From Glandiceps talaboti (Eukaryota; Hemichordata; Enteropneusta; Spengelidae), in assembly GCF_964340395.1 (NCBI RefSeq), contig NC_135550.1, forward strand, positions 22,624,676 to 22,688,675: a stretch of 64,000 bases of DNA, written 5' to 3'. This document shows positions 189 through 35,855 of the stretch, piece after piece. Numbering within the stretch: position 1 is the first letter of the stretch; each line of letters opens with the position of its first letter. The notes beneath the pieces were generated by a model that worked only from the letters and a program-made list of their open reading frames with translations, made no database searches and was not told where the DNA came from. The translations under genes were made by a program, and so were the position numbers.

Positions 189-3100
189 CTAAAATAATCA
201 GATTTGCATTCATGTGGACATCATTATCAAAAGTCTTCTTGGCACTGATATCTTCCATGCCTGCAAAAAAAAAAATCAAATAGGGACAAGATTGTCACAA
301 AATATGAAACAATGTAGTACAAATATTTCCTATTATGTAAATGTACAGGTTATGGCAATCAAACTCACCATCTAGTGTGGACACAGGTTATGGCAATCAA
401 ACTCACCATCTAGTGTGGACACAGGTTGTGATAATCAAACTCACCATCTAGTGTGGACACAGGTTGTGATAATCAAACTCACCATCTAGTGTGGACACAG
501 GTTATGGCAATCAAACTCACAATCTAGTGTGAACACAGGTTATGGCAATCAAACTCACAATCTAGTGTGAACACAGGTTATGGCAATCAAACTCACCATC
601 TAGTGTGGACACAGGTTGTGATAATCAAACTCACCATCTAGTGTGGACACAGGTTGTGATAATCAAACTCACCATCTAGTGTGGACACAGGTTGTGATAA
701 TCAAACTCACCATCTAGTGTGAACACAGATTGTGGCAATCAAACTCACCATCTAGTGTGTACACAGGATGTGATAATCAAACTCACCATCTAGTGTGGAC
801 ACAGGTTGTGATAATCAAACTCACCATCTAGTGTGTACACAGATTGTGGCAATCAAACTCACCATCTAGTGTGTACACAGGTTGTGATAATCAAACTCAC
901 CATCTAGTGTGGACACAGGTTGTGATAATCAAACTCACCATCTAGTGTGGACACAGGTTATGACAATCAAACTCACCATCTAGTGTGGACACAGGTTGTG
1001 ATAATCAAACTCACCATCTAGTGTGAACACAGGTTGTGATAATCAAACTCACCATCTAGTGTGAACACAGGTTGTGATAATCAAACTCACCATCCAGTGT
1101 GAACACAGGTTGTGATAATCAAACTCACCATCTAGTGTGGACACAGGGTGTGATAATCAAACTCACCATCTAGTGTGGACACAGGGTGTGATAATCAAAC
1201 TCACCATCTAGTGTGAACACAGGTTGTGATAATCAAACTCACCATCTAGTGTGAACACAGGTTGTGATAATCAAACTCACCATCTAGTGTGAACACAGGT
1301 TGTGATAATCAAACTCACCATCTAGTGTGGACACAGGGTGTGATAATCAAACTCACCATCTAGTGTGAACACAGGGTGTGATAATCAAACTCACCATCTA
1401 GTGTGGACACAGGTTGTGATAATCAAAGTCACCATCTAGTGTGGACACAGGTTGTGATAATCAAACTCACCATCTAGTGTGAACACAGGTTGTGATAATC
1501 AAACTCACCATCTAGTGTGGACACAGGGTGTGATAATCAAAGTCACCATCTAGTGTTGACACAGGGTGTGATAATCAAACTCACCATCTAGTGTGGACAC
1601 AGGGTGTGATAATCAAACTCACCATCTAGTGTGGACACAGGGTGTGATAATCAAACTCACCATCTAGTGTGGACACAGGGTGTGATAATCAAACTCACCA
1701 TCTAGTGTGAACACAGGTTGTGATAATCAAACTCACCATCTAGTGTGAACACAGGTTGTGGCAATCAAACTCACCATCTAGTGTGAACACAGGTTGTGAT
1801 AATCAAACTCACCATCTAGTGTGAACACAGGGCGTGGTAATCAAACTCATCATCTAGTGTGAACACAGGGCGTGGTAATCAAACTCACCATCTAGTGTGA
1901 ACACAGGGCGTGGTAATCAAACTCACCATCTAGTGTGAACACAGATTGTGGCAATCAAACTCACCATCTAGTGTGAACACAGGTTGTGATAATCAAACTC
2001 ACCATCTAGTGTGAACACAGGTTGTGATAATCAAACTCACCATCTAGTGTAACTACTTGTTCATCTACTCTGACTCCATCAATCATACCACTGCTTACAA
2101 TATTACCAGTTATGTTCATGCTGCTGAAAGTATTTTCACCTAGATAGAGAAAAAGTGTGTCAAATTAGATGTTATTTCTTTCAAGATGATTTAATTACAC
2201 TGACTATCAATACACTAGTGGACGAAGTCGTAGAAAGTATCAAACTTGTAAGTTTACAAAGTATCATCAATGTGTTATTTATTTGTAAACAACTTGTTGC
2301 TCTTTATCATGACCAAGCTCTGAGGCTGAACTCAAGAATTGTGATAAACTCTTGTCGGACGCCATGTAGAACACTTTTGGCTGTTCTGAATCAACTCCTC
2401 AACTGATATGCAAATCACTGTTAGTAGTACACAATCATACAATCAGACAAGATAAAGATAGCCGTTTTTACTAGTCAGGTTAAATGTACAACATATAATT
2501 ATTGTATAAAAAAAAACCCTGTAGGAGCTTCATGACTATACATTCAAGTTATCATTAACTATAGGTTTATAATGTTACCTGTAAAAGTATTTGGTTCATG
2601 GGAATCCAAGTATATTGCATCTTTTACAATTTGATTGAAATCTACACCATCCACCACACCAAGAACAGTTAGGTTTTTGAAATGTACATCATTTGTTACT
2701 ATGATGTTGTCTTCAAATGTCTTATCTCCTGTTATATCCTGTAAAAGGCGTAGACACCACAATATAGTATACTGTTAGTAATTACTTGTCAATGTACTGT
2801 TCAATTTATGTAATCTACTTGGGCATCGTTTTCATCATTTTATTTTGAAATCGAACAAAATCAAAGCATTTCAAAAAAGATTTTAAAAATACTAATCTAT
2901 ATTCAGAACCACAAGTGCCATAATACTTCTTGTCAACATTGCCCTCCTGATCAATCATGGTCACCACACATACAGCTATTGTGTGGATGACCCCATGAAT
3001 AATTAATTAGCAAAATATTAGCAGATATGATTTGAGTTTGATAAAAGTTCTCAATTGAAGCTGCGTGGTGACTTATCACATCTCTTTGAGGTTCACTAAA

Positions 3101-3344
3101 TCATACATTTCCCAAGGCAAGCCACAGCCTCTATAAGGAAAGTTGTTTATTGTGTGTAGAGAGCAAGTATACAGATCTCTATCCATGAAAACGATATGAT
3201 GATTGGTGGAAGTCTATTGTTGTTGCATTTCACATTTTGGAAAAGTTGGTGTTCCAGTGAAACTTAAATCTCTAACACATTTTACTCAATAGTACAGAGA
3301 TTTATTGTAATGTGGTAACCATGGTGATCATTAAAATTCAATTT

Positions 3345-3430
<86 letters not shown>

Positions 3431-6400
3431 CCAACTGTTCATTGGAAAATTATTAAAATCTTTTGTCAGGGACAAAAAGAACTGCCATGGTTTTTATCAT
3501 AATTGACACTTTGGAAAATGGTTCTAAATTATTTCTAGAAATAACAAGTCATTTCCAACCCTGGTGATTTGTGTAAGTAGTACTTATGCATTCATTTACA
3601 ACTGTATGACTTATGATAGAAACAAACCCAATACAAAGCTAAATGAACACCAACCTGATCATCGTCCAAAGTCACAACAATGTCACTGAATTCAGACAGG
3701 TCTCTCTCATTCACAAGGCCATTAACGTTCAAGTCTCCTTCAATTTGAACTGGACCCTCAAATATGACATTGCTTTCTAGGTGTCCATCCATATTGACTT
3801 TTGGTGTGTTGGCATACAGCTCAGATATGTTGACACCATCTACCTTACCATGTATTGTGATATCATCAACAAACACATCTGGTGAATTACAAGGGAAAAT
3901 TTGATTCGTCAAAATACTTATATTCACACCAGGATTTTAGATTCGATTTTCTATGAATGAGAGGACCATACTTAATTTTTTGCTTATTTTTAAGGGGGAT
4001 GGGGGTGCTGGTGGGGGTGGGTGTTGAGATACATGTAGAAGTTTTCATTAGACAATATGTTACACATCAGAAATGGAAACTAATTGCATAGAACTTACCT
4101 TTCTGAAATGTAATATCACCAATAATGGTTTGTTCTACATTGATTTTGACCACTGATATGTCTAAAATAGAAATGTCCACACTATTCACATGTCCAGTTA
4201 CAGTTACATTACCATCAACAGCTACATTAGGGAAAGTGTAAGAACCTGCAAAGACATAAAACATGCAATATTACTGATACACCTTTTGTACATGCGAGAC
4301 TCGGTAACAATTATGGTTAACTCAACTGACACATTCAATCTTTTTAGTTTTGACAGAATTGTAGACAGTTTTACAAGTGAGCAAGGTTCACTAAAGTTGA
4401 CTCTAGGAACATGGCATGGTTTGAATATTAGGACAGAAACATGTCTGACATGTGCACCATTAAATTATCCAAATATATACAGCTGACAGAACTTTCACTC
4501 TTTGCAGCTGACTTGAGCCAACTCCTGAGAAGAGTCTCTGTAAAACACACTTCTGTGGTAATTGCAAGACACAAAACAGTAAAATGGAATGACATTAGGT
4601 ATCCTAGTTGATAAATTATTTACACCTGAAACCAAGTGAAATGTTCTATTTTAATACATAAATTTGTCTAAAAATGAATATCATAGAAAACAAAAATTGT
4701 TAAGAATGATATGGTGTATAATAGTATAGTGGTAAATCTGTAGGTTATAATTGCCTTACCAGTGATAGTTTGTGTTGTTGATTTCCTAAACAGCTGTTCA
4801 CTTATATCTATTGAATTCACTGTATCTATAACAGTGATGTCACCATTCACTTGGAAACCATCGTTAAATGTCTGGACAAAGAAGAGAAAGATTGCAAATC
4901 ATCACATGTCAAGACAGTGTCACTTGTAAAATACACCACTCCTATATTTCAAATATACCAGTCTCATTAATTCATAGGAACACGTACCTCTATTCTAGAT
5001 ATTTTCAAGATCAAGACTATTACAGCTAGCATGTTAAATACCCCGACTTTAATTCTCTCTCAGTTAGACAAGTTTATAAATGAGATCTCCTTTTAAGGAA
5101 AAACTGGCATTTACCAGAGATATACACATGCATAGATTTTACTTGTGTTTGTCTTTTACACAATGTGTTGAAAGTGATAACAATAATTTATTTTTTGCTA
5201 ACTTTAAAACTGTAATGAGTACACCAAACAATTTACATCGAGATCTCATAAAACATATAATCTACCTGATTAAAATAAATATTTCAAAACACGGTAGGTT
5301 AGCATTTTGGCAAAAACCACAAACCTTGTTGGCAGTGATCACTTGAGGTTGGTCATTACGTACAACATCATTAGCCAGGAATTCTAAATCGACTCCATCA
5401 ATTGAACCATCAACAATCAGCTTATTGACAATTCTCACATTGTCAGCAAATTCCTGTAAAAACAGTTGATAAATGAAAAATGTTGACATATGTGATTGTG
5501 CAATAAAAATAGTACACTCTGACACTTTTTTTTTTATTTTAGACACGACGTTTATTGCTTTTTTTTGTGCACTCTGACACTTTAACTCATATTCCATTTA
5601 AAAAACTGTCAAAACTTTCTTTTGACCACATTCAGATGTAAAAATATCTCTTGCATACAATATGGTCCTATGGTCCAATCTTCACCCCTTCAAATTATTT
5701 GCAACTTGTAGTTTGACCTTTCAACTCTGACCTTTCTTCCTGTAACAGTCTGTCTACCACCAGTGTACAAGGCATCAGTTTTTAGTTTAGCCAAGTCAAC
5801 CCCGTCAACCAATGCATTTGCCACAACATCAGAATTCATATAGACCGTACCTGAAATTAGCAAAAATATACATAAAAGAATGTTTTAAAGCACGTTCTTT
5901 TTCTTTTGATCAACATTTGGAGACAGATTAAGAAATGATAACCAATCTTAGATATGTCACAGTAGAAATACAATGAGGCAGCATATGTAATAAACAATAC
6001 TGAAAATGGCAAATCTGAGATCTGCCAATTCTGCCAAACTTTTTTTTACACAAGTTTACTTCAGACTTCAAACATTTTCTTCAAATCCAATCCAACCTTT
6101 CAAAAGTGTTAATGATAATGTATTCCTACTTGTATCATACAGGCACAGGAAGTTGATTTTTCTACTAAAAATTGGAACTCACTTCTTACTAAATCCCTGA
6201 ACACAAGTGCTAATAAAAGGACCACTGAATAAGAGTCAATCATGACGACATGAAATTTATCAATCTCATTTCAAATTAAAATGCATTGTGCTAGGGGGTC
6301 ATATGCTGCATAGCATCTTGGGTAAAATGAGAATAATTCCCTGATTCGTGACCAACATAAAGTACTGGAGTTTTTTGGGTATCTAACTTTTGCCTTTTCA

Positions 6401-9400
6401 TTTTTTGGTCAGAACGTACGGTATCTAACTTTTGCCTTTTCGTTGTTTTTTCCCTCCAAATCTTACAACTTGACAGCACAAATCTGACATATAAAATACT
6501 TGCTCAATTGCCACTTTTGTTTTATCTGCCACCTTTGGCTGTTGGCTGAAAGAGGATTGTTGCAATATCTATAACTCACCTCGGTGGTAAAGTTATATTA
6601 AAGGTACTACTGATAGACAGTAAGACATAAAAAAAAATTTAAATTAATATAATTTTAATATATTAAAAAAATAAATACGTCAACATACTAGTGAATGTCT
6701 TCTTTCCTATGATAGTTTGGTCTTTGGTCAATGAGAGTATAGTGTCAGCCAAATCTACAAGTTGGATTTCATTGACTGTTCCAGACACAGCTATATCACC
6801 ATCAACGTGTACAGTATCATGGAAATCAAAATCTCCTTCAATAGTCTAGAAATAAAATACAGAAAACATTTTAACACCTAACTTACATTTCTTGCATCAT
6901 TTGAACAGCAAACTATATAGTGTACATGCAATCTGCTCAACTTATTATTGGTATGTAGATTTTCATTTGTATCCATCATTGCTATGCTTGAAATTTTCCT
7001 TTCCACATTTTATTAACAAATGGAAATCACAAAACAAATAATCTGGTTTTACACAAAGATGAATAATTGTATTCCTTATCTACCCAGAACACACAGCTGT
7101 AATTTCTAAACACCTGATGTACCTCAAAATGATATTCATTTTTAAACTCCAAGAATAAACCAAGGAATTATTGCTGTTGATGTCAGTGAAAGTGTCAGTA
7201 TTTTGAGTTTCTTGAATTTTATTCAGAATGTGAGAATGATTGATAGGTGACATTTGACCTATTGTGTGCTTAATACTGGTTTGCTACAAGTTTTAGAAAT
7301 TATTCGATGTTTGATCTCTAAATTTTGTTTTTTAACCAACAGTATGCAAATTGAGTAGAAAATTGGCTGAAATGATGGGTTTTTTAATACCAGAATCATC
7401 CAACTTTCCTTATATTACCTGATCAGTTGATAGTGTAATCCTCTCTGCATCAAATTCTTCCAAGTCGACTCCATCTATTTTCCCAGTGATGTTAATATTA
7501 CCATCCACAGTTAAAGCTTCCTCCATTACAACACGGTCAAACATTAGATTTCCTGTTTAAATCAAATGTACACACTTAAATACTAAAAATTGTTCTCATT
7601 CACGAACTTTACAAAAATAGCAGCCATTATTGCTTATTTCCTATATATATAGACACTTCTTTTTGAGTTGATCAAAGATGACATGCAAGATATTTTTTTG
7701 AAAGAACAATAACACAGGAGAAAAATATGTTAAAAGATGATCTAAAGTTGGGTAAATATTACCTAACCTGTAAAAATTTGAAAACAGGAGAGACATATCT
7801 GAGTACATATTTTCTAACCTGTGACAATTTGTTGTGCATTTGTCATCATAACTTGTTGTGATAGATCCACCCCATCCACAGTTCCACTCACATCAACTGA
7901 ACCCTTGACTCCAACATTACCAGTGAAGGTCTTGTGACCAGCTATGCTCTGATCAGCCGATATATTTACCATTTCACTCACTAATCTATCTAAGTCAACA
8001 CCATCAACAAGTCCATTGACTTCAATATTACGTTCAGCTGTAAAACCCTCAAGGAAATTATATATGCCTGTAATGATATAATAGCAGAATATACACTTAG
8101 TGTTATAAGAGCATAATTTTTAGCAATCCAATCCTGAATGAACCTCAAATCATAAATCAAAATCTTCAAATCATAAAACAATCAATCTACTTTTATTAAT
8201 ACATTTGGTTCTATATCAGCAAAACCCACATTTTGCACATCCTAGCTGACACACAAATGAACATTCACATTCCACTAACAAATACCAAATATGATATATG
8301 AAATACCATGAAGGCACAGCAGAAGAGTAAATGTCTTTGGTCATAAAAACCATAGTTTCAACTTTTGTTATGATCTCTTCAATTATTTAAGATAATAATT
8401 CAACAAAATATATGCTGAAGACATGTAAAGTATATATGCAATCTAATACTCTACACTCACATGAGTTGTGACAATTTGAACTAGGTTTACAATATTACAA
8501 ATACAAGTTGTATTCAGAGAAGTATGATCCACATTTAATTTTAATGTATGGGTAAATATTATAAAACGATTTCTGTAGTTATGGATGATATAGTAATGCT
8601 GTCACCCCTCTCATACAACTTTATATATGCACAAATAATATCCATTCACTTACCCATGATGTTTTGGTCACCATATTTCATCAGGAATTCCGAGACATAG
8701 TCCCGACCATTCAGCAGGCCTTCTACATTAATGAAACCTTTACCATCAGCTATTGTGACATCATTTTTAAAGGTTTTCTTTCCTGTAATGGTTTGGGCTA
8801 AAAATAGAAGATGAGTCAGGTTCTTTTTCTACCTCAACAGAATTTCAAATCATGTCAAATATGTTTTACTAATAAGATAGAAAAATTGCGATGAGTACTT
8901 GCATTAAATTGAGTTCAAAGGATTAACAAGTAATGTTTGTCTGTGGTCGTCTGATTTGCTTGGGTGGATTTCAAGTTTTTTGTTTGTTGACAAATACAAT
9001 CCACATAAAGTATAAAGCTCTTATCAATCCAAAGCTCTGACCATTATGTTGAATTTGGTTTATCTGCACGACGGCAGAGTTCACTTGAGGACAAAGTTTT
9101 TTGTAAATCGTGTAAGTGTCTGCTCAGACACAAAGTTTTGTGTAGTGTCATAGTGTCAATAGTTACTAGCATGGTTTTCTTAGCATGGATCCCCAAGGCA
9201 CAAGTGTGAATTGTAAATCAGTGCCTGCTGAATTTAAAGTTTGAGAAAAATACTTGTTTAACAGGATCCATTAGATAAATCATTTCTTTGCACTGCAAGT
9301 GTGAAAGGGCATGACTGAGCAAACGTTGCCATAGTGATGGTTGCTAAACACTATAGTTACTATTTGTTTGTAGGTAAACACAGTATGTGTATATGAATTA

Positions 9401-12400
9401 AAAAGAATTTCAACAAAATCTTACTCTGATGACTATTTTGCAAGACCGCATCCTCAAATAAGTTGTCCAGTTCTAGTCCATTCACTGTCCCTTTAATTAT
9501 TATTTTGCCATCAATAACAACTGGGCTGCTAAATATTACATCATCTGAAAAGTTTCAAATATTTCAAGAACTATAAAAAACATGAAAATATTACAGCAAT
9601 GCAAATTACAACACAGTAAAAAGATATATTTTTAAGGCAAGAATACGATTTGCAGTAAAGAACAGAAAGTGGCCATTATACTGTTGGATTCTACTTTATT
9701 TCCATACAAGTAGTTTAAAATGAATCATTTCAGTTCGTGGGTAATTTACCTATACCATAAATCACTCAGAAATGGTCATGTGACTGAAATTGAACCTGCA
9801 GATGATTCTGATGAAGGCTACTTAGTAATAACAAAACTGAACTCAAAAAGTATTCATTCTCACGTACACATAATTTATGTTGTAAATGGTGTCAGCATAC
9901 AAACTGTCTTGTCATTCCCACCATGTACAAGAATCTAGATAAAATGATGTACATACTTACATGGAATAATCTGATTTGTTGAATTGGTGACAACCACTCT
10001 ATTCAAGTCAGATACCTTTACACCATCAACGGTTCCATCTACAATGATATCACCCTGTGATTGCATTCCATTCTCAAACAATATAGACCCAGTGATATTT
10101 TGTTCACCTGAAAAAGAAATAAACCCAGTTTTCAAATCTGAGGCAACCAAAATGTGGGTGTCATTGTTAGTAAACTTCTTGCTCAGAATATAAGCCTGGA
10201 TTATGGTTTCTAAAATTTGAAGAGAAACAATTGTATTGATACCATCTGTTAATCTGACAATGTTACCATGGAAACGATCCTGAATTCCCATCATCATCAT
10301 CATCTGTACATATTTACCACACTGTATTTACCAGTTAATGTGACCACTTCTGACAGTTCAACGCCATCCACTAGGCCGCCAACATCTGCATTGCCCTCTA
10401 GTGTTAACAAACTTGTAAAAGTCTTTTCTCCAGTAATTTCTTGGTCACCTGTAAGAGATATGAAACAATAAAATTCACGTTTTTTATGGGCATTAACAAG
10501 AAATGAAAAGTGTTAAACTTGAAAATTCTAACAACAATGGAAACCAGAAGACTATAAATTTTGCTCCTGGCTATCTTAATCAGTTGCTAACCCAACGTAG
10601 CTCCAGCCATGCTTTATGCAGTAACTCACGGAACAAAATTTACTTATACCAACCACTCAAAAATACTGCTAAGTTATTATGGTGATAGAGCATTCTCAAT
10701 TTGTGCCCCACGCTTGTGGAATGCTCTGCCATCATATCTGCAGAGTGTCACTACATTCCAGGCATTTAAATCAGGTGTTAAGACCTATTTCTTCAATAAG
10801 ACTTTTGCTTGAGTCTGTTTTTGTACTCGTGTTTCTGTGCTTTGTAAAACGCATTGTGATAGTGATATGGAATGTGCTATATAAGAAAATTAGATTAGAT
10901 TAGATTAGATTGTAAATCTTTTAGCTGTAGTTGTCGTAACATTTTGTTTAGTCATGATATATGCTAAAGTTCATCTACTACCGGGTAACTTTATAGGATT
11001 CTGTGATCTAATTACTTTTGGGACTAGCAATGATAAATGGAAAATTATCTTTATTTGACTGAAATGCAAGAAGAGTTCCTAAAATGGACATTAGAAGCCA
11101 ATGATCACTTTGAACCAAACAGCGCCCTCTAGCAATAAAACTTAATACTGCAATATTTCATTCAGACAGCTAGTGATTAATTGAAATATTCAAATACGTG
11201 TAATATGGTCATGTAACATCCTTCTGTATAACATACCATGATAGGGTTTTTTCTGAGTAAAGAGTGTCTGTCGTCAAATCCAAATACAGTCTCTGTTTTT
11301 GTGTGAAACATAATCATACCATTTTATAGCTATCAATATGAGATGCTCTTTATTTGGAAACAAATACTTTATTATACATTTGAGAAGTCCAACATTATGG
11401 ATACTTGACATTTGTATACAGATTAACAGTTACTATGGCAACAAAATAATAACAGGACCACTGTTTTAAACTTAAAGTACATCAAAATGTTTGTTTTACC
11501 AGAAAACCTGAGAATATCTTCTGAGACGTCAATACCATCAATAAGTCCATCAACAATGAGATTGCCATGAATTATCACTGGGTCTTCAAATACAGTGTTA
11601 CCAGTAATCTATGCAATACAGAAATTATTCAAATATAGCGTCCATTACTTTTTTTTATTCATAACAATACAATACAGTAATGGCCGAATCAATGAAATCA
11701 CTGTAGATTGACGACAAAGGCAGACAGACATATAAACATGATTATCATTGCATCACCTCCTTTGTGTTACTTATCACGGAAAGATATTTAATGTTCCAAA
11801 ATTTAACAATACAAATAATAATGATAAGAAAATCACTGTAAACCCACTTTAGCAAATACTTGACACTCAAGATTACTTAAAAAATCTAACAACTCCAGTT
11901 ATAATGACACAGGCATTACCGTAAAGTCCTCGTGCAGTTTAGCTGCTAGTTGGTCAACATCTGACAGATCGATACCATTGACAAACCCATTAACTGTAAA
12001 ACTTCCATTTACAGTTAGTGATTGGGTAAAGGTCTTTGCACCTATGACATGACAATATTGAAACATTGATGAAGTTGGAATCTTCAGTATGATTTAGGGG
12101 AAAGAAAGCAGAATGAAATGCAAGCATAGACATACAAGATATTCATATATACGTAACATTTATATATCAATTTACAGTCAGCAACTGAGTACAAGTGTTT
12201 GCACCATACAACATGACAATTAAAATAGATTCTTGAATATGGGAGTTTCAGTATTATAGTATGGGGAAAACAGAATGAAACACCACAAACATAGACATTC
12301 GTTCATAGTCAGTGGCAGGATAAAAGTATTTCACCATGTCACTTTGACACATTGGAAATAGATAATTCATGAAGGTAGCAACTTGCGGAATTGGACCGGA

Positions 12401-15400
12401 AGACTAATGGAGAAAACAGAATAAACAGTGCAGATATTATACATTTCATTGCCTATATCAATGGGCAAGTAGAGAGTTGTTTACATGTATATTTGCCTTA
12501 CCAGAGATGGTTTGATCACCACGTGTTTGTAAGGTGTCATCATACAGGTCTGATATCTCCACCAGGTCTACTCTTCCATTCACTATCAAATCACCAGCAA
12601 TCTCCACAGAGTCAAACACCTTGTGACCTGTCAGATGTCAATGTAATGGTATTAGAGTCAAACATCTTGTGACTTGTCAGATGTTAATTTTGTAATGGTA
12701 TTAGAGTCAAACACCATGTGACCTGTCAGATGTGAATGTAATGGTATTAGAGTCAAACATCATGTGACCTGTCAGATGTGAATGTAATGGTATTAGAGTC
12801 AAACATCTTGTGACCTGTCAGATGTTAATTTTGTAATGGTATTAGAGTCAAACACCATGTGACTTGTCAGATGTTAATTTTGTAATGGTATTAGAGTCAA
12901 ACACCATGTGACCTGTCAGATGTGAATGTAATGGTATTAGAGTCAAACACCATGTGACCTGTCAGATGTTAATGTAATGGTATTAGAGTCAAACACCATG
13001 TGACCTGTCAGATGTGAATGTAATGGTATTAGAGTCAAACACCATGTGACCTGTCAGATGTTAATGTAATGGTATTAGAGTCAAACACCATGTGACTTGT
13101 CAGATGTTAATTTTGTAATGGTATTAGAGTCAAACACCATGTGACCTGTCAGATGTCAATGTAATGGTATTAGAGTCAAACACCATGTGACCTGTCAGAT
13201 GTTAATGTAATGGTATTAGAGTCAAACACCATGTGACCTGTCAGATGTCAATGTAATGGTATTAGAGTCAAACACCATGTGACCTGTCAGATGTGAATGT
13301 AATGGTATTAGAGTCAAACACCATGTGACCTGTCAGATGTCAATGTAATGGTATTAGAGTCAAACACCATGTGACCTGTCAGATGTCAATGTAATGGTAT
13401 TAGAGTCAAACACCATGTGACCTGTCAGATGTGAATGTAATGATACAGAAAGTGATAAATTGAATGACATTTCCATGATTCAAATTTTTGTCCTATCATA
13501 GCTTAAGTTCCTTGTAAACTTAAAGCTTGTCTAAGGAGTTGATTTAAAAATATGGTTAACATATTAATTTTTTCTTTGGTGATGTAAATATTAATTCCCA
13601 TAATACTGGTATATCTAGTATTATATGGGAATGAATCAGATTTGAAAAACAAAACATTTGAACGTTGTAACTAGGTGCATTGCATTGTTAAATTGTGCTT
13701 CCATGTAATTGGAGAACAGTCAGTTGGTTAGAATTCCTACTTGCCTGTAATGACATTATGTGAATGCAAACTGACAACTTCTTCACTGATCTGTATACCA
13801 CTGACTGTAGCCGAGTCAAAGAAATCTGCATTGCCTTCAATCACTGTATTTGCTGACTCAGCAAACTGCTTCACTCCTGGAATTGAACATTTGCAGTATA
13901 AAACATGCATTAGGAAAATGTTGAAAGGATTTTCAAAATTTTATTTAGCAGTTAAATTGTAAATCTACCAAAGAAGGCTACATTGAGAACTCTATCCTCA
14001 AGTTTGGGTTTGCATATGAATCTTGCATTAGGCCAATATTGTACTCATTGCAGTTCATATAGTTCATTTTAAAGTTTATTTTGCAGTTTTGAAATCCACT
14101 GTTTGCTGAAATAATACTTCTTGATTTGATTTTCTTTCTAAATCTGTGGAACTTACAAAAACAAAACATCTATATTGTATTTCCATGGAAACTCAGAGCA
14201 CTATAGAATTATAAGCAATCTAAATTTGGAGGAACCAGGATGTGTATACTCCTTTATAATGTACTTGTCTCTATCTCTTAGCTACTCACTGGTAGGTGAA
14301 ATGTTCACAAGATTTTAAATTTGACAAGAATACAAATCATATTAAAATCTTGCACACACACATGTTTATGTGAAGGACAACATGCAGGTAAATTTTAACA
14401 TTTTAAAAAAATCAATGTGAAGGTTCCCCACCAAAACTATGGTGCAAACTTTGTAAATAGAATCAGTTTAGTACCCCCCCCCCCCCCCACCCACCCAACA
14501 ATTGTTACTGTATGGTCCCAAACTTTAGCAAAACCATCACCTGATATAGTTCTTTGGTCAAGGTCAGTAAATATGATGTCAGTTGAAAGGTCAACACCAT
14601 TTATCACCATTTCTGGCTGCATTTCAACATTTCCATGAACAGTGACATCTTGAGTAAACATTTGCTCTCCAAGGATTGCACGTTGGTCATTCAACCTATC
14701 AAAATTACAAATCAAATATTAATATCAAAAAGTGATATCATACTAACACAGTTGGATGAGTGGCTAATAAACTATGATTTTCTAAAAATGACTTAAACAA
14801 CACAGGCATTGATTGTCATGTAGACTCATTCGGTACATGTAAATGACCAGTAATATAGAAAAAAAAGCACCATCAATGTTTTGTTTGAAAGCTGTCAGAC
14901 ACAGCTTGAGGGCTTCAACTGCAAAGTACATCTGCAACTGATGATATCTGTAAACTTGTCAAACTTCTTTCTCATTCTTACATTGTAATATGTAAAAACC
15001 ACAACCCATAGCAGGTACATTGACACAATAATATCACTCAAGCAAGGAAGTGACAAGATCACATTTTTCAAAAGATTAACTACTGCTGTGTTTGTGTATG
15101 TGTGTGTATTAAACATATCGATTTCAATACAATATCTGTAAACTTATTTTAACCTGACAGCCTCTCCATTCAGCTTATCAAGATCAACACCATTGATATC
15201 AGACACTTTCAGATTTTGAGCAGTAACAGCGCCCTCAACAGTCAGACGAGTAATAATTTTCCTTCCTGTGATATCTTGGTTGGAGTCTAAAGTTACAGCA
15301 TCTGAGGACAAATGTCAAGTTGAAAAATAACTGTTTACACTTCATGATTTGAGAGAAAGGTTTAGACAAGGAAAGACCAGAAGGCAGGTATATATCTAAG

Positions 15401-18400
15401 GGGTAAGACATACATTTTTTCAATAATATTTGCTTACAAGATGTTCTTTTGAAAAGATTCTGATAAATTTCAGCCAACTTGCCCTCCATAAAATGATTTT
15501 CCACAAAATATTGGACTGAAGAATCTGAAATGAAATGCAACTCATCTCTTAGATCTAAATGACATTTTTCACAAAATGTTCAATTTAATAACACACAAAT
15601 ACAATCACCAAGTTGCATGATAATCAGTTTATATAAGTACCTTGTAAGACTGCCTCTATTCTTGTCATTTCAACAGACTGTGACTGTAACTCAGCAAGGA
15701 GAAATTCAGTTGAAATGTCAGATCCAATGTCAACAGTTTCAACTGCATTATCAACATTCAGATCATCTAGGTTCAAGAGGAGAAAAAAAAATTAAATTAG
15801 AACCGTGTCCTTGTTAAAAGTACAGTTAGTAGTTAGTCAATTCTAGTTGAGTGTATTCCATCAAAGCTTAGCAAAGTATCGATCATGACAGTATCTATAA
15901 CAGTATGATAAAGTATTCAGGATTCCTCAATACCACAAGAGGAACCTTGCTTGTTGAAAGATTTCGTTCACGTACTGTATGAACTGCTCAAATATTATTT
16001 TTTTGTAGTTGGTTAAACACTGCTTTCTCAAATTCTAATCACATTTGTAGGATTATACAGGGATATAGCTAATTTTAAAAGTAGAATGTAAAATTTGAAA
16101 AAGGAGGTGGTATTACCTATGAAAGGGAACTATCAATCTATGGGGGTGGGGAGAGGGGGAGGGGTGGTAGTAACAAAATATTGAGGTGCATTACCTTCTA
16201 CAAGTACAGTGTTTCCAAACAAATAATTCTCCATTGTCACATTCTTCGTGAAAATTTTGTGACCAGTAATTGTCTGTTCACCATCTAGTCTCATACCATC
16301 ATCTAATAAACCTTGTGCCCTTTCAACAGCTGATTCATAGTCATTCAACTTTCTCTGTACATTGATAAATATTAAGACACATTAGTACAGTAATCATTCA
16401 TTGACTATACACCACATCAATAAGTAGAAATGTGGGAATCTACTGAAATCACTGAATATACGTATACCATAACAACACCGCAGTTGCATCTTTCACTTAG
16501 ATAGTTCAAAATGTATTTGTCTTCTTCCTTCAATATCATGGAACAATAAATCTACCATGTCTCAGAATTTGAACATACATGTAATGTATTATGACACAAC
16601 ACCATGACATAACATAACATAACACAACACAGCACGGCATGAAACAGAATAACATGACAGGACACGACACAACACCACACCACACCACATCACACCACAC
16701 CGCACCACACACAACACCACAAGACGCGACACGACATAACACAACATGACACAATACAACACAACAACACAATACCAACACCACAAGACGCGACGTGAAA
16801 CAACACATGACACGACACAACACAACACAACATAACACAACACAACACAACACAACACAACACAACACAACACAACACAACACAACACAACACAACAACA
16901 ACACACAACAACACAACACAACACAACACAACAACACAACACAACACACAACTCACTTTGACTTGTTCAATTTCTCTGAGGAGTCTCTGATACTGTACAG
17001 CTATAGGATTGGGTAAGTCTTCTATCTTGACATCTATTCTGTCTATATAATCATTTAATCCTCCATTCTCATTGGTTTTCACCAAATACATGTTTCCTTC
17101 CAAAGTAAATGATGTAAACCCACTGCACCGGTCCCAGCCATCAACATCCACTACAATCAATCATATCAAATGCTGACAAATTTCAATTTCATGTGCAGTT
17201 ACATGACATGTGTGATGGCTATGCTTCTGAGGAAGAATTATTTAATATTTTTGACATGGACAAAATAATTTTTGGTATGTGACTAGCATGTCAAGCTCAG
17301 CATATTGATATAGAGTGCTAATGTTGATATCACTATTACAAACAAACAAAAAATCTAATTTTTAAAAAATCAATTTTTAAAAAAATTAATTTTTTAAGTC
17401 TGATTGTTTCCAAGCATACAGACAAACATGTTATATTTCCCTTGAATCAAATCAGTAAATAAAACAGATTCTAACCAGTTTCATTAATCTTGATGAATGC
17501 CTTGTCACTGCCACTAAAACTATACAAATGGACATTGTCTTCATTTGGTTCATGGGTCGCCTCAACCAGTAGCACCGCCTCCCCACAATTACCAACCGAT
17601 ATTGAATGCCATCCAGTCGGTAGTATACTGGGGATAACTTGGAATTCTACAAAATTTAGACCTACAGGAAAAAAAGAGTTTTGTTACATGAATCACTCTG
17701 GTCCAAATATGAATGTTATACTAAGAAAATCTTATATTATTAATTGTTACTACTGCACTGATACCAGTCAGCGAAAGTGGCATAACAATTTGTTGTCCCT
17801 CCGACGTGTCAAAGTTTACAACGATTTACATTAACTCCACTTTCATACTTCTGAAAATTTGTCTGGGATGGATGCTATCTAGATGAAAATATCAATATTG
17901 ATAAAATGAATTTTTGTAGCACTGAACTGGTGTTCTGTCCAGACTAGCTCATAGCTACTCCTTGATACTGCCCATTTACACTCTGCTCTATAGGTTTTTT
18001 TTCTTGGTCTGTTGTTTATTTATTTTCAAAGTCCGTAAAATAAAAAGTTAAAAGTTCTTATCTGCGGTGCCTGTGCAGATATATACTTGATGACAAAAAA
18101 ACAAATTTCAAAACTAAATTTCAAAACGTAACAAAAAGAAAACCATCTTACCATCCCATTTATAAATGACTGAATTTCCACCATGATAATTTGTTACAAT
18201 CAGGTAGTGTTCAAAACCCAAACTGAAATATTCCAAATCAATGGCTCCATTGGTAATGATCCTACAAGTAATATAATATTATTAGTAATCAAGAAAAAAA
18301 AATTACCCCAGAAATCAAACAGACCACATACAAATACAAGGGATGTTCTCATTTGAAATATTTTATCCAATCCTAGACAAGTGTGAAGGGTTTTGATAGT

Positions 18401-21400
18401 TCAGAGCAGTGGTCATGGTGCTGAAAAAATTATGTCTTGCCAAGAATGTCAAGTGTGATCATGATTTGGCCAGCCCAGTTATTCCAAACAATAGCTTCTG
18501 ACATGTATGTACTCGACTATCATCAATATCTCATTTACACCTGTGTGAATGCATGTACAGATGTTTCATGTCTGAGTTTGGCTCCCCATTTAACTCCAGT
18601 TTCTTTCATATGTAAATACTATGAATATGTACACATACTCCTGCTATAGAAATGTTGACAGCGAACAGCAGGCATTATTGTACCAAAGCAAAGTTGTCAC
18701 ATTTCTACTTTTAGATGGACAAGAAAAAGGCCTTTTTACCTTGCCTATGTATGCACTAAAGCTCAGTTTAAATTTAGTTTATAAATGCTTGTCTGGATAC
18801 TAAAACTGTGATTACATTATACTTTGAAATGCTGTCAATTCACAAGTGATAAACATTCAAACCATGGAGTGGGTTATACTTCCATGCTCAGACAGAAATT
18901 ATGAAGGATCAATGATCACATCAAAAGAGTCCTCTAATAGTTCATATACAATATGATTTCAAAATAACATTACATCTTCATTACTTCCTCTTATATATGT
19001 ATTCTAATTAGGCCAAAAAAATTGTGTGGTTCTGATTTACGCTCAATTTTAGAATAGATAGGGTAGGTAACAGTCCCTCTATTTATCTGTGGGTAGGTAG
19101 ATTTTAATTTATGTGTGAGTGTCTAGTTCAGCTAGTTATATTTTCCAGTTTTTCATATGGTCTCTGTGTTATTGGTTTCTTCTCATCAGATGTACAGCCA
19201 TTACAGATTGGAAGAACAGTTTCATAGTGTCTTTTTAAGTTGATGTCAGTTTCTCACGAGACAACACAATTTTCGTGATTTTATTTTATTTTTTTCTTGA
19301 ATAGTCTTTTGTATAAAACTAATAATGATTATTTACATTATACGTTGTTTTCAAACAGCTAAAAATATACCTTGTTGACAAATTTAATTATTAGTGTTTG
19401 ATGACAGATGGGAATTCTGCCAGTAGCCAATAGTTGTGAAGTGTGCTTTAGTGGGTGTAGAACTGAATGAAATTTTTACAAAGACTTTCACAGTGTGAAC
19501 ATTACTGTACCATGTATCTTTAAACTTAATGTTAACTGCTAGCACTTCAAATTTACTGCCATCACATACTGGGTGCGGCAAATATTTTCTTAAATATGTT
19601 TAAAACATACTAAATGCATTTATTACAAAAAATAACAAGCAACACTTTCATCTCAAATACAGAATAAACCCCATTTACATGTAAGTTGTTGACTTTTGAC
19701 AATTTATAAGTTTTGACACATTATAAATTAATCATAGTGCTTACCTTTGATAGAGTCTAAAGTTTCTTTGGTCATGATCGTATTTATAGATAACAGAGTC
19801 AATTTCAGACAAGCCACTATCGTCTATTGAATTGGCAACAGCCAGGAATCTATCTCTATTGATTTCAAATGCTTCAAAGTCCAAAGCTCCATTAGTATCT
19901 ATATCTTGTATGTGAATGAATTGTTTGCCTGAAAAAAACCCCATCACTTACATCAATAATTGTTCAAAGGTACTGTCTCATTTATACTTGTCAAATACAG
20001 TCTCTTCAAATTGGTGTCCAGACTACAGACTGGCTACAATGAATTAACTATTCCAGGAAGCGGTTGAAATATACTATTACACATCAAAGGTGTACAGAGT
20101 CTATAACCTTTGCGATTGTTCATATCTAAAATACACCTATGTTTATTAGGACTACTGAAATATGTTGAATCATAAATTTTCCAGTACCAACTAGATCTCA
20201 TTAGCAATTTTAACTTAAGGAGATATAAAAATGACATATTAAATATAATAATCTACATGCATTAAGTACGGTACTAATAAATTCAAAAAAGGCACAGTCT
20301 CATTATTCGACATTAAAATGCTTCTTTGTGTATATTTCACCATGATCACTGACTTTAGCAATAAATGGGGATCTCGCACCAGCTGCAGTAGACTGCCACA
20401 TTAAATAAGTTAAACTGCAATTATTGACAGGGAAGGAAATTTTACACTATTTGGTAAATACTCACTTCTAGCATGCCATTGGTAAATTGTTGATTGATGT
20501 CCAACGTTTCCATAGTGATCTTGATTGACAGCTAATGCTAAATAAGTATTGCTATCTATGGTGAAAGACTCGACATGTTTTGTGATGCCATCATCTATTG
20601 TTTGCACCTCATTCTGAAAAAGAACAATCCACAGGCCCAAGATGTTCAGTATTCTCCCCTTTTAAGAATTACTATAGTACATTATACCTATTTGTACAAT
20701 TCTGGAACATATCCAAATGATCTCCTAAGTACTCCAAACTGAAGTGCTGTTATGTTTGTGTTGCATTTTAATAGACTGCAAATTGTAGGCAAACTGCAGT
20801 ATCAAACAGTATCATAACAGCACCATGGTTACAATATATCTTGAAGCTCTTTTCTAGCAACAGTTTCCAGTCTTTTCTTTCTCTGAACAAAATGACTTCA
20901 TATGATTTAGGTTCAAAAAAATAAAAAATGATCAGAAATGGACAACTTTATGATTATAAGTACAAATTGGTGGGTATTGACGGTGAAAACTTACAAGTGT
21001 CAAATCATCCATAATTTGATATATTGTGACTTGACCGTTAGTGTTCACTGCTGCCATATATCTAACATCAGTTTCACTGTATTTATTTACTCCAATAGTG
21101 TAGGATTCTACATCTATCATGCCTGAAATATTGGAGCAAAAAACACACTCATTTATTTCAACATTGTGGTTATTGAATACATTGAAAACTAGTCTCTAAG
21201 AAATACAAGTAACTCGTCTACAACTGATTCAATACGGAACTTGCAAATCTGCCATATTTAATAGTGCATTGTGGGAAGTGTGGTATCATTGGAGATGAAT
21301 ATGAATTAATCAATTTGAGTCATTGAGAGTACTTCTGATCAACAGTTGCTCGTTCATAACTACCGGTACCTTGGGGGGTCCTTCTGTTGTCATGTTAGCA

Positions 21401-24019
21401 GAACACTGCCACTAATTGGCTCATTTCTAGGCACACAAATGACAAAGTTTGGAGACTTGAAATGATATATCATAAAAATTCTAATGATGCACACCATATG
21501 TATCCTACCAGTCACTTCCATAAAAACTCATACTACTTACCAGTGTCCAAACTAAATGACAAAGATTTTTCAAATTTTCCTGTTGCGTCACTGAAGACAA
21601 ACAAACTCGACTCTCCAACTGTTGTTGATGCTAACACCAAAACATGTGACCCATCTTGATAGAAATATTCCCAGTCATTAGCAGATTGTAAATCAAATGT
21701 TTGGTAAGGTGTTACTCCAATCAGTTTCAAAGCTACAAGGTAATAGAGATTTTAGTAGTCCCATTACAATATTCATTTAGATTTCCTAAAATTTGACAAA
21801 ATGAAGATTTCACAAGGAGTTATGATGTTTGACATGTACACACTTTTTGACTGATTTTGTGAACATTATATTTGGTATGTTATGACTGAGCTGACCCTAC
21901 GCAGATGGATTCTAAAGGAGAATGGTGGAGTCTAGTACTGAATACCTAGTACGGGACATGGCTTGGAGCTTTCTTGGTTTACACTCCCATAGAGTGACAA
22001 AATAATAATTTCATGAACCGAGTTTGGAAAGGGCTTAGGTTTTCAAAATCAATTGAGTCAATTTGTACGCTATACAATCATTTCATTACTTTTCAACAGA
22101 ACAACCATAATGTAGCCATGAGGTTAATACCGCTTTACAAATGCTGCATTCTAAATAACCCACATCACATTACAGTAAACACGCGACTTAAAATATGGCA
22201 TTGACCAGGTATTACTGCAAACACAGTTGGAAATCTGTGCTTTAGTTTAAATATCCTACAAATTATTTGTTAGGTTTAGGTTTCAGACTTATTCAATAAA
22301 TTTTATTCGAAAGTTATTTTGTAACGTACACAATTTATCACCTAATATTTCACGTCATAATACAACAATCATGTACATGTACAGGTACATGGTATACTAC
22401 AGACCCTGGATATCACATAGCCTCCACAGTTTACGGAAATACATTATTATGTTTACCCTTCCTTCTGTTGCAGGATGTAAATATGGTACATACTTCTGTT
22501 ACATTCAAAATGCCACAAACATATTGAGGGAGAACAATGATTTGTTGCATAATATGTTTTCACACTAAGGTTAGCTTCAAAATGTTTTATTTATAGAACT
22601 AGGTCTTAATAATAATCCATGTGTCCATTTTCATGGCATAAGCTATATGTGTTACACTCACTTTCACCCTGTGTCTACCCTGCTCTCTCTAGCCTCCATG
22701 TACATCCCCACAGTGAATAAAAGTCACTGCTGTTTGTCACCTTGATAGCAGTCAAAAATACTTTGTACATTTCTACATGTGTATAAATGGCAGCCCTAGT
22801 TGGTAGACTATGTGGCTAGACTGTCATGTCTGGATATACTTTTTGTCGCTAATTATGTGTATAATTGCTTAGATGTCGGACTAGTAAATCTGTAAAAGGT
22901 GCAATTGAATGACCTGATGTTTCTAGTATTGTATAGAAATGAACTCTTACCGACATTCACAAACAAAAGCAGTGTCAAACTCCCTATAGGACATCCGTTG
23001 CCATTGGCATCCAGGAAACATAGGACAATTTTTCTCACCTCCCAATAATTTTTTCGTTTTTTATTTTTAACAGCATAAAATTTGAACAATTACTATATAC
23101 CTTGGTAGTACTGATATTATATATATATATTTCTGTCATGTATAATTGAGATTACCTTCTCTATTTCCCACTCCTGTGTCATATGTGAAGGAGTGTGGAA
23201 AGGTTTGGTCAGTGTTGCGTCTTTTTCTTTGGTATGGTGTGTCATAAGATCTGAAATGAAATGAGAAATATTCAATCTGATAAATTAATCAGTCAATTTT
23301 CAATCATTTACTTTACAGTTTCCATGGTTAAAAGGACAGCACAGCATTAACGGCCAGTTATTCAATCCTAGGTCCCTGCATTAAATTATCTGTGGAGCCA
23401 TATTAGGTTTATTTAGGATTTAATTCTTTTGTTCTTAACTTGAAATTTTTCAAAAGCTCTGCCAGACAAGTTTTCTAAATTTGGTTATAAGTTCGAAAAT
23501 GAAGTTAAGCCATTGCCAGACCCCCTCCCCCTACATGAACACAGTTAAGCCATTGCCAGACCCCTCCCCCTAAATGAATGAAGTTAAACCATTGCCTGAC
23601 CCCCTCCCTCTAAATGAATTAATTGATCTTGTGTGACACCATACATAAACACGTCGTTGTTGCACTTGTGAACATTTTTTTACGGGGCAAGGGAGGAGTT
23701 TTTGGCCTAAGCGATTAAAGTCTGTTTATCGAGCTTGTGTGACATTGTGCGATCATCCCTAACAGATTTCTTTTCGAAGTAAGGTATGGTTATACGACTT
23801 GACAGATATTTACCTGTGGTGATTTTCCTGGACTTCTACAGCTGCTGTCTCAAGTCTCACTGTATATTCCCTTAATTCTCTTGCCAGAAACTTATCTAAT
23901 TCTGCCTGGGTTTCAATCAAATAATCATTCTTGGAGTCTATGCTAGGGAGACTGGTAATTAGTTCAAATAGGCCACATAGTACACTGCAGATCCAAATAA
24001 TGTTGTATTGTGCAGTCAT
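189..24019 (-). CDS. Secreted EAR-propeller protein with long VDGVDLS-type repeat array (32 exons seen, 3' end off window)
   Basis: Exons on the minus strand, in order: 24019-23814, 23250-23156, 21732-21541, 21122-20995, 20613-20466, 19928-19745, 18261-18152, 17661-17476, 17150-16957, 16354-16195, 15766-15641, 15301-15154, 14695-14541, 13876-13745, 12627-12502, 12041-11920, 11608-11500, 10448-10332, 10107-9961, 9544-9425, 8797-8654, 8067-7819, 7552-7419, 6845-6689, 5850-5732, 5453-5325, 4871-4760, 4245-4099, 3878-3655, 2738-2579, 2139-2041, 260-189. Every acceptor is AG, every donor GT except GC after 13745, and the frame stays open through all joins, giving 1,550 residues so far. Order: signal peptide (about 1-23), pro-region, RKRR at 77-80, seven EAR repeats (101 to about 455), helical linker (about 455-500), then VDG-type repeats to the window edge. 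The start has A at -3; an acceptor-like CCAG lies 9 bases upstream, so a 5' non-coding exon is possible. I know no named orthologue. The extracellular location follows from the signal peptide and EAR repeats; a function in adhesion or matrix is inference. Confidence 0.9.
345..2040. repeat. 38-bp minisatellite filling intron 31; each unit carries a 5' splice-donor copy
   Basis: About 45 head-to-tail copies of a 38-bp unit with low divergence. On the minus strand each unit includes CACTAGATGGTGAGTTTG, which is the last bases of exon 31 plus its donor. The array leaves only about 85 bases of unique intron before exon 32. Variants (GG versus GA before CACAG, TT versus GG after it) occur in clusters of neighbouring units, as expected from unequal exchange or replication slippage. 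Confidence 0.97.
3344..3434. repeat. (AATC)n microsatellite
   Basis: About 22 near-perfect copies of a 4-bp unit in intron 29 of the EAR gene. The asparagine/glutamine/serine-rich open frame across it is an artefact of the repeat. Confidence 0.97.
10555..10912 (+). mobile_element. 5'-truncated LINE 3' tail (CR1/L2/jockey-like group)
   Basis: The plus strand codes for the C-terminal end of a non-LTR reverse transcriptase protein: PGYLNQLL, then in another frame YGDRAFSICAPRLWNALP and a closing FKSGVKTYFF before a stop at 10810-10812. The change of frame near 10670 shows the copy is degenerate. A short 3' UTR with the TGTGCTATATAAG motif ends in about five ATTAG units, as in CR1/L2-type elements. 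It lies in intron 17 of the EAR gene, antisense to it. The precise clade is not resolvable from this piece. Confidence 0.85.
12610..13440. repeat. 46-bp minisatellite in intron 14; each unit carries a 3' splice-acceptor copy
   Basis: About 18 copies of a 46-bp unit (some 49 bp). On the minus strand each contains CATCTGACAGGTCACATGG and GTGTTTGACTC, matching the acceptor and first 17 or so bases of exon 15 (12627 downward). The copy nearest the exon is the true boundary. Units differ mainly at a few sites (CAT/CTT, GTGAAT/GTTAAT/GTCAAT). Confidence 0.97.
16604..16951. repeat. (CAACA)n-rich array at the start of intron 9
   Basis: Imperfect pentamer array, most regular from about 16810 to 16950, with CACAC variants toward the left end. 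On the minus strand it reads (TGTTG)n and begins about six bases after the donor of exon 9 (GT at 16956-16955). The long Cys/Val-rich and Thr/Gln/His-rich frames here are artefacts. Confidence 0.96.
16957..21732 (-). other. Seven EAR (EPTP) repeats, one per exon: predicted seven-bladed propeller
   Basis: Exons 3 to 9 each code for one repeat of about 40-60 residues with the EAR pattern: an aromatic/acidic lead-in such as DFEAFEI, DLEYFSL or HVESFTI, a strand such as RFLAVANS or TYLALAVN, and a closing strand such as SVIYKYD or STIYQWH. Seven repeats is the number that closes a propeller in LGI proteins and TSPEAR. The only cysteines after the signal peptide in the visible protein are C380 in repeat 6 and C425 in repeat 7. 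Exon 9 continues into a charged segment (QRLLREIEQVK) that with the start of exon 10 forms a likely helix leading to the VDG repeats. Confidence 0.82.
17662..23155 (-). other. Introns 2, 5, 6 and 7 and smaller gaps between EAR exons
   Basis: The non-coding stretches 21733-23155, 19929-20465, 18262-19744 and 17662-18151 hold no open frame or RNA gene that I can support. They are plain A+T-rich intron sequence with short homopolymer runs. Confidence 0.6.
23156..24019 (-). other. Signal peptide and pro-region exons with RKRR site
   Basis: Exon 1 codes for a hydrophobic leader (IIWICSVLCGLF, residues 7-18) with likely cleavage near residue 23, then a charged, probably helical stretch rich in Glu and Arg up to residue 69. 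Exon 2 adds a polar segment with QRKRR at residues 76-80, matching the furin-type RXK/RR motif. Cleavage there would release a pro-peptide of roughly 55 residues just before the EAR propeller. The furin assignment follows known motif rules; actual cleavage is inferred. Confidence 0.75.
23501..23619. repeat. Three tandem copies of a ~40-bp unit
   Basis: Three adjacent copies start with AAGTTAAGCCATTGCC or AAGTTAAACCATTGCC and continue through a C-rich core (ACCCCCTCCCCCT) and TAAATGAAT. Copies 1 and 2 differ slightly and copy 3 is most diverged. It lies in intron 1 of the EAR gene. Confidence 0.9.
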
Positions 24020-35100: not shown

Positions 35101-35800
35101 TCTCACTCATTCTGACTTCAATGTCTAACTCATTCTGACTTCAATGTCTAACTCAGTCTGACTTCAATGCCTAACTCAGTCTGACTTCAATGCCTAACTC
35201 AGTCTGACTTCAATGTCTAACTCAATCTGACTTCAATGCCTAATTTGGTCATACTTAAGTGTGTCACTCAGTCACACTTCAATGTCTAACTCACTCTGAC
35301 TTCAGTACCTCACGCAGTCATTCTTCAGTATCTACCTCGATCATACTTGAGTGTCTAAGTCAGTCACACTTCAAAGGTCAATGTCTAACTCAGTCTGACT
35401 TCAATGCCTCACTCAGTTACGCTTCAAAATGAGCTTATATATCTCTTTGTACAATATATTTTTAACTTATACTCAGCGTCAATACTGTACTTATAGATAG
35501 TCAGATAGTTTATCTAACTTAGTGCAACCAGTATCATGTAATGTAATCTGGTCTTACTTCTTCATCATGTCTTATCTAAACCATACCTTCTTGTGTTCTG
35601 ACCACTTTGTCAAGTAATTTTTTATGTTAGTGGTTCACCACTATCAAAATGGGAATAGGGAGGAATTTTTATATTAAAAAAGAATGGAAATAAGTGGGAG
35701 AGAAAGTCTTAGATGACATGTAAAATAATATTTTATGGGTAGGTACAAATAGTTGTATAAATTAATATGATGGAACAACTCTCAGAGGGTTTAAATCATT

Positions 35801-35855
<55 letters not shown>

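Follow-up and report, generated by a model that had tools for sequence, protein, structure and literature searches.

The minus strand of the 64,000-nucleotide stretch of Glandiceps talaboti DNA analysed here (the window) carries, from position 24019 to 189, a gene whose 32 exons, spliced together, give a single reading frame of 1550 codons uninterrupted by stops. The encoded protein consists, in this order, of a putative signal peptide, an RKRR motif, a seven-bladed EAR (EPTP) propeller, a heptad segment of 33 residues and a stalk of repeats of about 43 residues. These repeats belong to the family of the phage receptor-binding protein (RBP) neck (BppL_N) and carry a hexad pattern. The product is probably a secreted homotrimeric lollipop, in which EAR heads, a coiled coil and a rod of interlaced beta-prism would serve extracellular adhesion or spacing.

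Gene model and EAR head

The exon chain comes from a splice search by dynamic programming whose codon table was drawn from the visible coding stretches, and the start of exon 19 was set by hand to the acceptor before 10107. All exon junctions (31/31) are phase-compatible in the joined frame; 31 of the 32 donors are GT and one is GC. Exon 32, the last one found, finishes in a donor, and the gene therefore appears to continue past the left edge of the window, with its 3' end outside. Control runs applied the same codon table and splice scoring in a free-start search of four control sequences. The modelled strand scored 281 (32 exons), against 10.2 for the opposite (plus) strand there and 10.5 for the reversed letters, while positions 39901-64000 gave 58.5 on the minus strand (7 exons, perhaps another gene) and 10.7 on the plus strand. 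Since the model itself supplied the training data for the codon table, the score of 281 is inflated, but the gap to the controls is still large, and a chance join of exons was ruled out on this basis (281 vs 10-58). The exons are listed in Table 1.

Table 1. Exons of the EAR-stalk gene, in order of transcription.
Feature	Position	Strand	Basis
Exon 1: start codon, putative signal peptide, start of N-terminal segment	23814..24019	-	gene model; signal peptide by inspection
Exon 2: N-terminal segment, RKRR (residues 77-80)	23156..23250	-	gene model
Exon 3: EAR blade 1	21541..21732	-	gene model, Pfam, blade profile
Exon 4: EAR blade 2	20995..21122	-	gene model, blade profile
Exon 5: EAR blade 3	20466..20613	-	gene model, blade profile
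Exon 6: EAR blade 4	19745..19928	-	gene model, blade profile
Exon 7: EAR blade 5	18152..18261	-	gene model, Pfam, blade profile
Exon 8: EAR blade 6	17476..17661	-	gene model, blade profile
Exon 9: EAR blade 7, first half of heptad segment	16957..17150	-	gene model, heptad scan, blade profile
Exon 10: second half of heptad segment, degenerate first repeat (from residue 506)	16195..16354	-	gene model, unit profile, heptad scan
Exon 11: end of degenerate first unit, spacer	15641..15766	-	gene model, heptad scan
Exon 12: repeat exon	15154..15301	-	gene model, unit profile
Exon 13: repeat exon	14541..14695	-	gene model, unit profile
Exon 14: repeat exon, GC donor	13745..13876	-	gene model, unit profile
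Exon 15: repeat exon, acceptor copied in minisatellite	12502..12627	-	gene model, unit profile
Exon 16: repeat exon	11920..12041	-	gene model, unit profile
Exon 17: repeat exon	11500..11608	-	gene model, unit profile
Exon 18: repeat exon	10332..10448	-	gene model, unit profile
Exon 19: repeat exon, start set by hand	9961..10107	-	gene model
Exon 20: repeat exon	9425..9544	-	gene model, unit profile
Exon 21: repeat exon	8654..8797	-	gene model, unit profile
Exon 22: repeat exon, two units; structure-prediction query	7819..8067	-	gene model, AlphaFold
Exon 23: repeat exon	7419..7552	-	gene model, unit profile
Exon 24: repeat exon	6689..6845	-	gene model, unit profile
Exon 25: repeat exon	5732..5850	-	gene model, unit profile
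Exon 26: repeat exon	5325..5453	-	gene model, unit profile
Exon 27: repeat exon	4760..4871	-	gene model, unit profile
Exon 28: repeat exon	4099..4245	-	gene model, unit profile
Exon 29: repeat exon, two unit cores	3655..3878	-	gene model
Exon 30: repeat exon	2579..2738	-	gene model, unit profile
Exon 31: repeat exon, donor copied in minisatellite	2041..2139	-	gene model, unit profile
Exon 32: beginning of another repeat; gene apparently continues past left edge of window	189..260	-	gene model, unit profile

On inspection, residues 1-26 look like a signal peptide. The RKRR motif is presumably a furin-like site, at which the N-terminal segment may be removed. Pfam EPTP was found in the modelled protein at E 2.4e-36 (123.9 bits vs a cut-off of 21), with four stretches passing individually, and seven blade-like segments, about one per exon, were recognised in exons 3-9. 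Searched against 2046 six-frame ORFs of at least 20 residues, a blade profile built from the seven blades themselves returned the seven blade ORFs at E ≤ 1.6e-11 and the next match at 0.17. The solved structure closest by sequence to the EAR head is LGI1 (E 5.1e-8). The Pfam listing for the 1550 modelled residues, which extends to E 10 but in which HMMER's filters leave out most hits weaker than about 0.1, contains no LRR, laminin-G, Calx-beta or 7TM family.

In the heptad segment (residues 466-498), every one of the 10 a/d positions is taken by a residue of the set LIVMFYA (L, I, V, A or Y), a score reached in 0 of 300 shuffles of residues 441-580. The segment crosses the exon 9/10 junction unbroken, one half following blade 7 in exon 9 and the other half preceding the first repeat, GEQTITGHKIF, in exon 10. 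A possible second helix in the exon 11 spacer did not rise above background in the heptad scan. The exons were joined by computation and might come from two adjacent genes, an EAR gene stopping after exon 9 and a separate repeat gene, a reading against which stand the unbroken heptad and a joined frame that is open from end to end. The best evidence that propeller and repeats form one protein is exon 10, since it holds both a heptad half and the first QTITG repeat; the split into two genes was rejected on this ground and is very improbable.

The coordinates, strand and exon number (32) of the preliminary description were reproduced by the recomputed model. The recomputation supports its reading of the EAR propeller and the repeat array behind it, more than 1,000 residues long, as parts of a single gene. 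It also supports the secreted head-on-stalk shape proposed there, secretion itself being predicted.

Two minisatellite arrays lie at exon edges of the EAR gene (exons 31 and 15). One (345-2050; 38 bp, about 45 copies) sets in at the very end of exon 31 and copies the donor region of that exon, so that the intron holds dozens of donor-like sites; in the other (12608-13442; 46 bp, about 18 copies) the repeated sequence includes exon 15's acceptor region and initial coding bases. The exon 9 donor is immediately adjoined by a degenerate (ACACA)n array (16662-16948), and an intronic segment at 10670-10812 on the plus strand resembles, on inspection, the C-terminal end of a LINE-type retrotransposon protein. 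Elsewhere in the window, a nucleotide-sugar transporter exon is located at 41061-41762 on the plus strand (Pfam Nuc_sug_transp, E 3e-25). If a possible first exon of the transporter, seen by inspection near 26190-26350, belongs to it, the transporter and the EAR gene would be transcribed divergently. A long microsatellite at 35761-36238 gives CVCV/YIHT repeats when read on both strands.

Stalk repeats and their relation to the phage RBP neck

The stalk comprises 1045 residues from residue 506 onwards and contains no Cys, no Trp and 9 Pro. With 22 full units, a degenerate first unit and a last unit truncated by the end of the model, the unit profile gives 24 repeats, in line with the earlier count of at least 23. 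In an odd/even cross-validation, profiles of 11 units recovered 21 of the 22 held-out units at E ≤ 0.0047 and unit 3 at 0.33. Among the 2046 six-frame ORFs, a unit profile built from the same units that it recovers matched 22 at E ≤ 3.5e-4. These 22 all lie between 169 and 16381 on the minus strand; the ORF ranked after them (0.031) lies within the minisatellite that copies the edge of exon 15.

All 20 introns following exons 12-31 fall in one part of the 43-column unit cycle, which runs from column 41 past column 1 as far as column 14. Phase 1 is found in 14 of the 20, eight of them at column 7, where the codon spanning the junction is the conserved Gly in seven cases. Of the two earlier stalk introns, one is within an insertion of the degenerate first unit and the other is outside any unit. 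The recurrence of intron positions in the unit cycle suggests that the stalk grew through duplication of exons.

The repeats had initially been left without a family assignment, which the profile searches now supply. The stalk matches Pfam PF18338 (BppL_N) in six stretches at E 1.3e-11 (44 bits vs a curated cut-off of 25.8), and BppL_N is absent from the Pfam listing of the reversed 974-residue stalk, a control sequence that is one letter off. A profile of 16 of the 22 units gave 14 matches at E ≤ 1 among PDB sequences. Ranks 1-7 are chains with the TP901-1 RBP neck (E 1.2e-4 to 2.2e-4, BPP residues 40-61), and the next two (E about 1e-3) are named 'Major structural protein 1', which we take to be from phage Tuc2009. 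Weaker rows include a protein named orf22 and two kinds of dockerin-like chain; the dockerin-like matches, of the VDG part (E 0.016 and weaker), were rejected as weak and short. A pairwise BLASTP search of TP901-1 BPP, taken from the genome record, against the stalk aligned BPP residues 21-60, including the helix, with 19/40 identical and 6 gap positions (E 2e-6). PHROG virion structural and tail families match the stalk at E 2.1e-9 and 5.6e-7. The sole NCBIfam row, redox_disulf_2, was rejected (19.2 bits vs a cut-off of 62).

Hydrophobic residues occupy columns 5 (22 of the 22 units), 11 (22), 15 (21), 17 (20), 21 (21), 23 (18) and 27 (22), and Gly occupies columns 7 (19), 19 (16/21) and 25 (17). 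The observed period-6 power was reached by 1 of 2000 column permutations for Gly and by 22 of 2000 for hydrophobic residues. For hydrophobic residues, period 2, which is ordinary for beta strands, gives a stronger signal (0.29) than period 6 (0.18). The hexad pattern of the BPP neck is present, minus one of its three glycines: G52 falls on unit column 13, where Gly occurs in just 2 of the 22 units. A preceding helix is represented by the heptad segment and by a helix at residues 25-32 in the weak model of exon 22. No C-terminal receptor-binding head is listed in the modelled part, the C-terminus of the protein lying outside the window. The gene does not encode a phage virion protein, having 32 exons and standing beside the nucleotide-sugar transporter.

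A scan of IMG/VR yielded 20 loci from 578 pattern matches, and most of the matches listed cover just columns 1 to about 26. Three phage loci (L012, L017 and L018, the latter two with identical scores) carry the VDGVD/VNGIN half, 12 residues and GDQTI(S/A)GxKT in the same register as the stalk. In INPHARED, an idealised unit matched 67 of 50,697 records at E ≤ 1, TP901-1 being first; an uncultured-phage locus from this search (E 0.1) was dropped, as its sequence contains no full unit. A tblastn search with 974 real stalk residues matched 4 of the 50,697 phage records at E ≤ 0.01 (2e-3 to 6e-3); two of the four, both GAP32 and thus one phage, were discounted because of a different low-complexity repeat in 600 fibre residues, and a matched protein of Streptomyces phage Dryad has QTIAGVKTF units. 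The single bacterial locus (L024, Parcubacteria), which came from a scan with exact query peptides and says little about bacteria, encodes at 2868-6410 a long protein of TTAKIADGSVT-type repeats mixed with a few GDQTINGVKTF units.

These likenesses raise the question of phage-to-animal transfer versus convergence. It is conceivable, though doubtful, that an animal lineage received the stem-neck segment of a phage or prophage RBP horizontally. This segment would have been joined to the rear of an EAR propeller, acquired introns and grown by exon duplication into a trimeric fibre of two dozen or more units. Such an origin would define a new class of extracellular rod in animals, made on the principle of phage tail fibres.

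Proposed trimeric rod and alternative readings

Each chain would consist of the signal peptide, one seven-bladed EAR propeller, the coiled coil and at least 24 repeats of the phage-neck type. The coiled coil would zip three chains together, and the repeats would then interlace. In each unit, the six-residue strands of QTITGxKTFxxxVxVxGxIxVxGxV would assemble into a triangular beta-prism resembling the neck of the TP901-1 RBP, and VDGVDLSELxxDV would supply a turn and a short helix, re-setting the trimer ahead of the next prism. The outcome would be a stiff rod, cysteine-free in the part seen and tens of nanometres long. The rise per six-residue strand in such helices is about 0.48 nm; with four strands per unit and 24 units the length is estimated at about 46 nm, and more with the helical spacers. 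Three EAR heads at the N-terminal end could provide multivalent extracellular binding (adhesion, matrix spacing or surface recognition), and the C-terminus outside the window may hold an anchor or a second head.

An AlphaFold2 monomer model of exon 22 (two unit cores) is weak, with a mean pLDDT of 65.8 and a pTM of 0.28. It shows an extended chain with no strand of at least 3 residues; confidence is best at residues 41-70 (blocks of 75-83). An extended, strandless monomer is what would be expected if strands pair between chains, which is not proof. Foldseek returned nothing significant for this model. The three PDB rows in all (E 3.5 to 8.6) are two chains of TP901-1 RBP and T4 gp34, and two of the five viral rows are named tail fibre or baseplate proteins.

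Several points weigh against the trimeric rod besides the weak monomer model and the lack of a significant Foldseek match. The Pfam model has only 25 residues and the motif is simple enough to converge, G52 of BPP has no counterpart, period 2 beats period 6, and the real stalk sequence matched just the four phage records mentioned. Of the 12 N-glycosylation sequons, 11 are in the stalk and would need positions on the rod surface. Bactofilin, a single-chain beta-helix, also appears in the Pfam listing of the stalk at E 0.0053. This match could point to a single-chain beta-solenoid, bactofilin-like or similar, in which case the rod would bear its head as a monomer or dimer and the phage likeness would be due to convergence on a Gly/Val hexad. 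Hexads occur in left-handed beta-helices too; the short core motif and the lack of the phage-neck glycine at column 13 would suit this fold as well. The Bactofilin match is, however, below cut-off and recurs with the reversed stalk (E 0.15), and a Bactofilin identity was rejected for these reasons. Moreover, the monomer model, weak as it is, shows no strand of at least 3 residues, and the GDQTIxGxKTF start, helix and linker common to TP901-1 are unneeded in a solenoid. We therefore regard the single-chain solenoid as unlikely and retain the interlaced trimer.

As to function, the trimeric fibre might instead act in defensive or food-related recognition, binding microbes via the EAR heads or a C-terminal knob outside the window. 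Phage RBPs of this kind bind their receptor via a C-terminal head, as stated in an excerpt of PMC3893620, and the C-terminus of the present protein lies beyond the window. The module common to phages is the neck, however, not the head, and the outer surfaces of LGI propellers are described as protein-interaction sites in an excerpt of PMC3691968. Microbe recognition is accordingly rated improbable, and adhesion or spacing is the preferred role of the trimeric rod.

Comparison with known EAR proteins and trimeric fibres

Among proteins with EAR repeats, ADGRV1 (GPR98/VLGR1) is very large and has Calx-beta repeats and a 7TM domain. It resembles the present protein in carrying EPTP repeats within a very large chain and differs, as far as the modelled 1550 residues go, in its Calx-beta and 7TM domains, neither of which is listed there, the C-terminus being outside the window. 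We know of no such stalk in TSPEAR, which differs further in the laminin-G/TSP-N domain indicated by its name; none is listed here in the modelled part. LGI1-4 share the seven-bladed EPTP propeller and the secretion predicted here, and they have an LRR domain ahead of the propeller (none listed here, Pfam up to E 10) and no such stalk. The secreted LGI proteins with their seven-bladed EPTP propeller, the EPTP repeats of ADGRV1 and the EPTP/EAR repeats of TSPEAR are described in an excerpt of PMC3691968 (for TSPEAR, see also PMC5065119).

The RBP of TP901-1 is formed by three interlaced monomers, with a helix bundle (residues 17-30), a linker (31-39) and a beta-prism (40-63) that carries a six-residue repeating motif, according to an excerpt of PMC3893620. 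TP901-1 BPP (ORF49) and the stalk have in common the helix, the linker and the GD(Q/E)TIxGxKTF start, and I44, G46, F50, V54, V56, G58, L60 and L62 of BPP correspond to unit columns 5, 7, 11, 15, 17, 19, 21 and 23 with like residues. BPP has a single neck closed by a proline (63) and followed by a beta-barrel head, whereas here at least 24 units are consecutive, most have an extra Gly hexad (column 25) and the VDGVDLS turn, and the head is N-terminal. The same excerpt describes the neck of T4 gp12 and a streptococcal phage-encoded lyase as interlaced trimeric (triple-stranded) beta-helices and reports that the TP901-1 motif was not observed in gp12. Both are of the structural class predicted here; the searches, including that of the unit profile against the PDB, revealed no sequence likeness of the stalk to either. 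Phage tail fibre and baseplate proteins from IMG/VR and INPHARED have, among the matches listed, several QTISGxKTF units per chain; those examined differ by irregular spacing, other domains between units, and the lack of introns and of an EAR propeller.

The combination of EAR propeller and repeats, first put forward as a new architecture, retains that standing within the Pfam, PDB and phage data searched, since the matched phage neck proteins have no EAR propeller. Among the literature matches listed, no animal protein that has this architecture or carries BppL_N repeats was reported; the name BppL_N matched an unrelated abbreviation in the 8 of 24 rows listed, and excerpts of PMC2637281 and PMC11477893 were unrelated. 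The parts are known; their combination, and so long and regular an array in an intron-rich gene, were not found within the searched data. In animals, collagens and coiled coils account for most long trimeric rods outside the cell. A phage-type interlaced beta-prism rod, if real, would add another solution, one that has 9 prolines and not a single cysteine in the 1045 stalk residues seen, and the EAR family would gain a new architecture with, as predicted, three propellers side by side.
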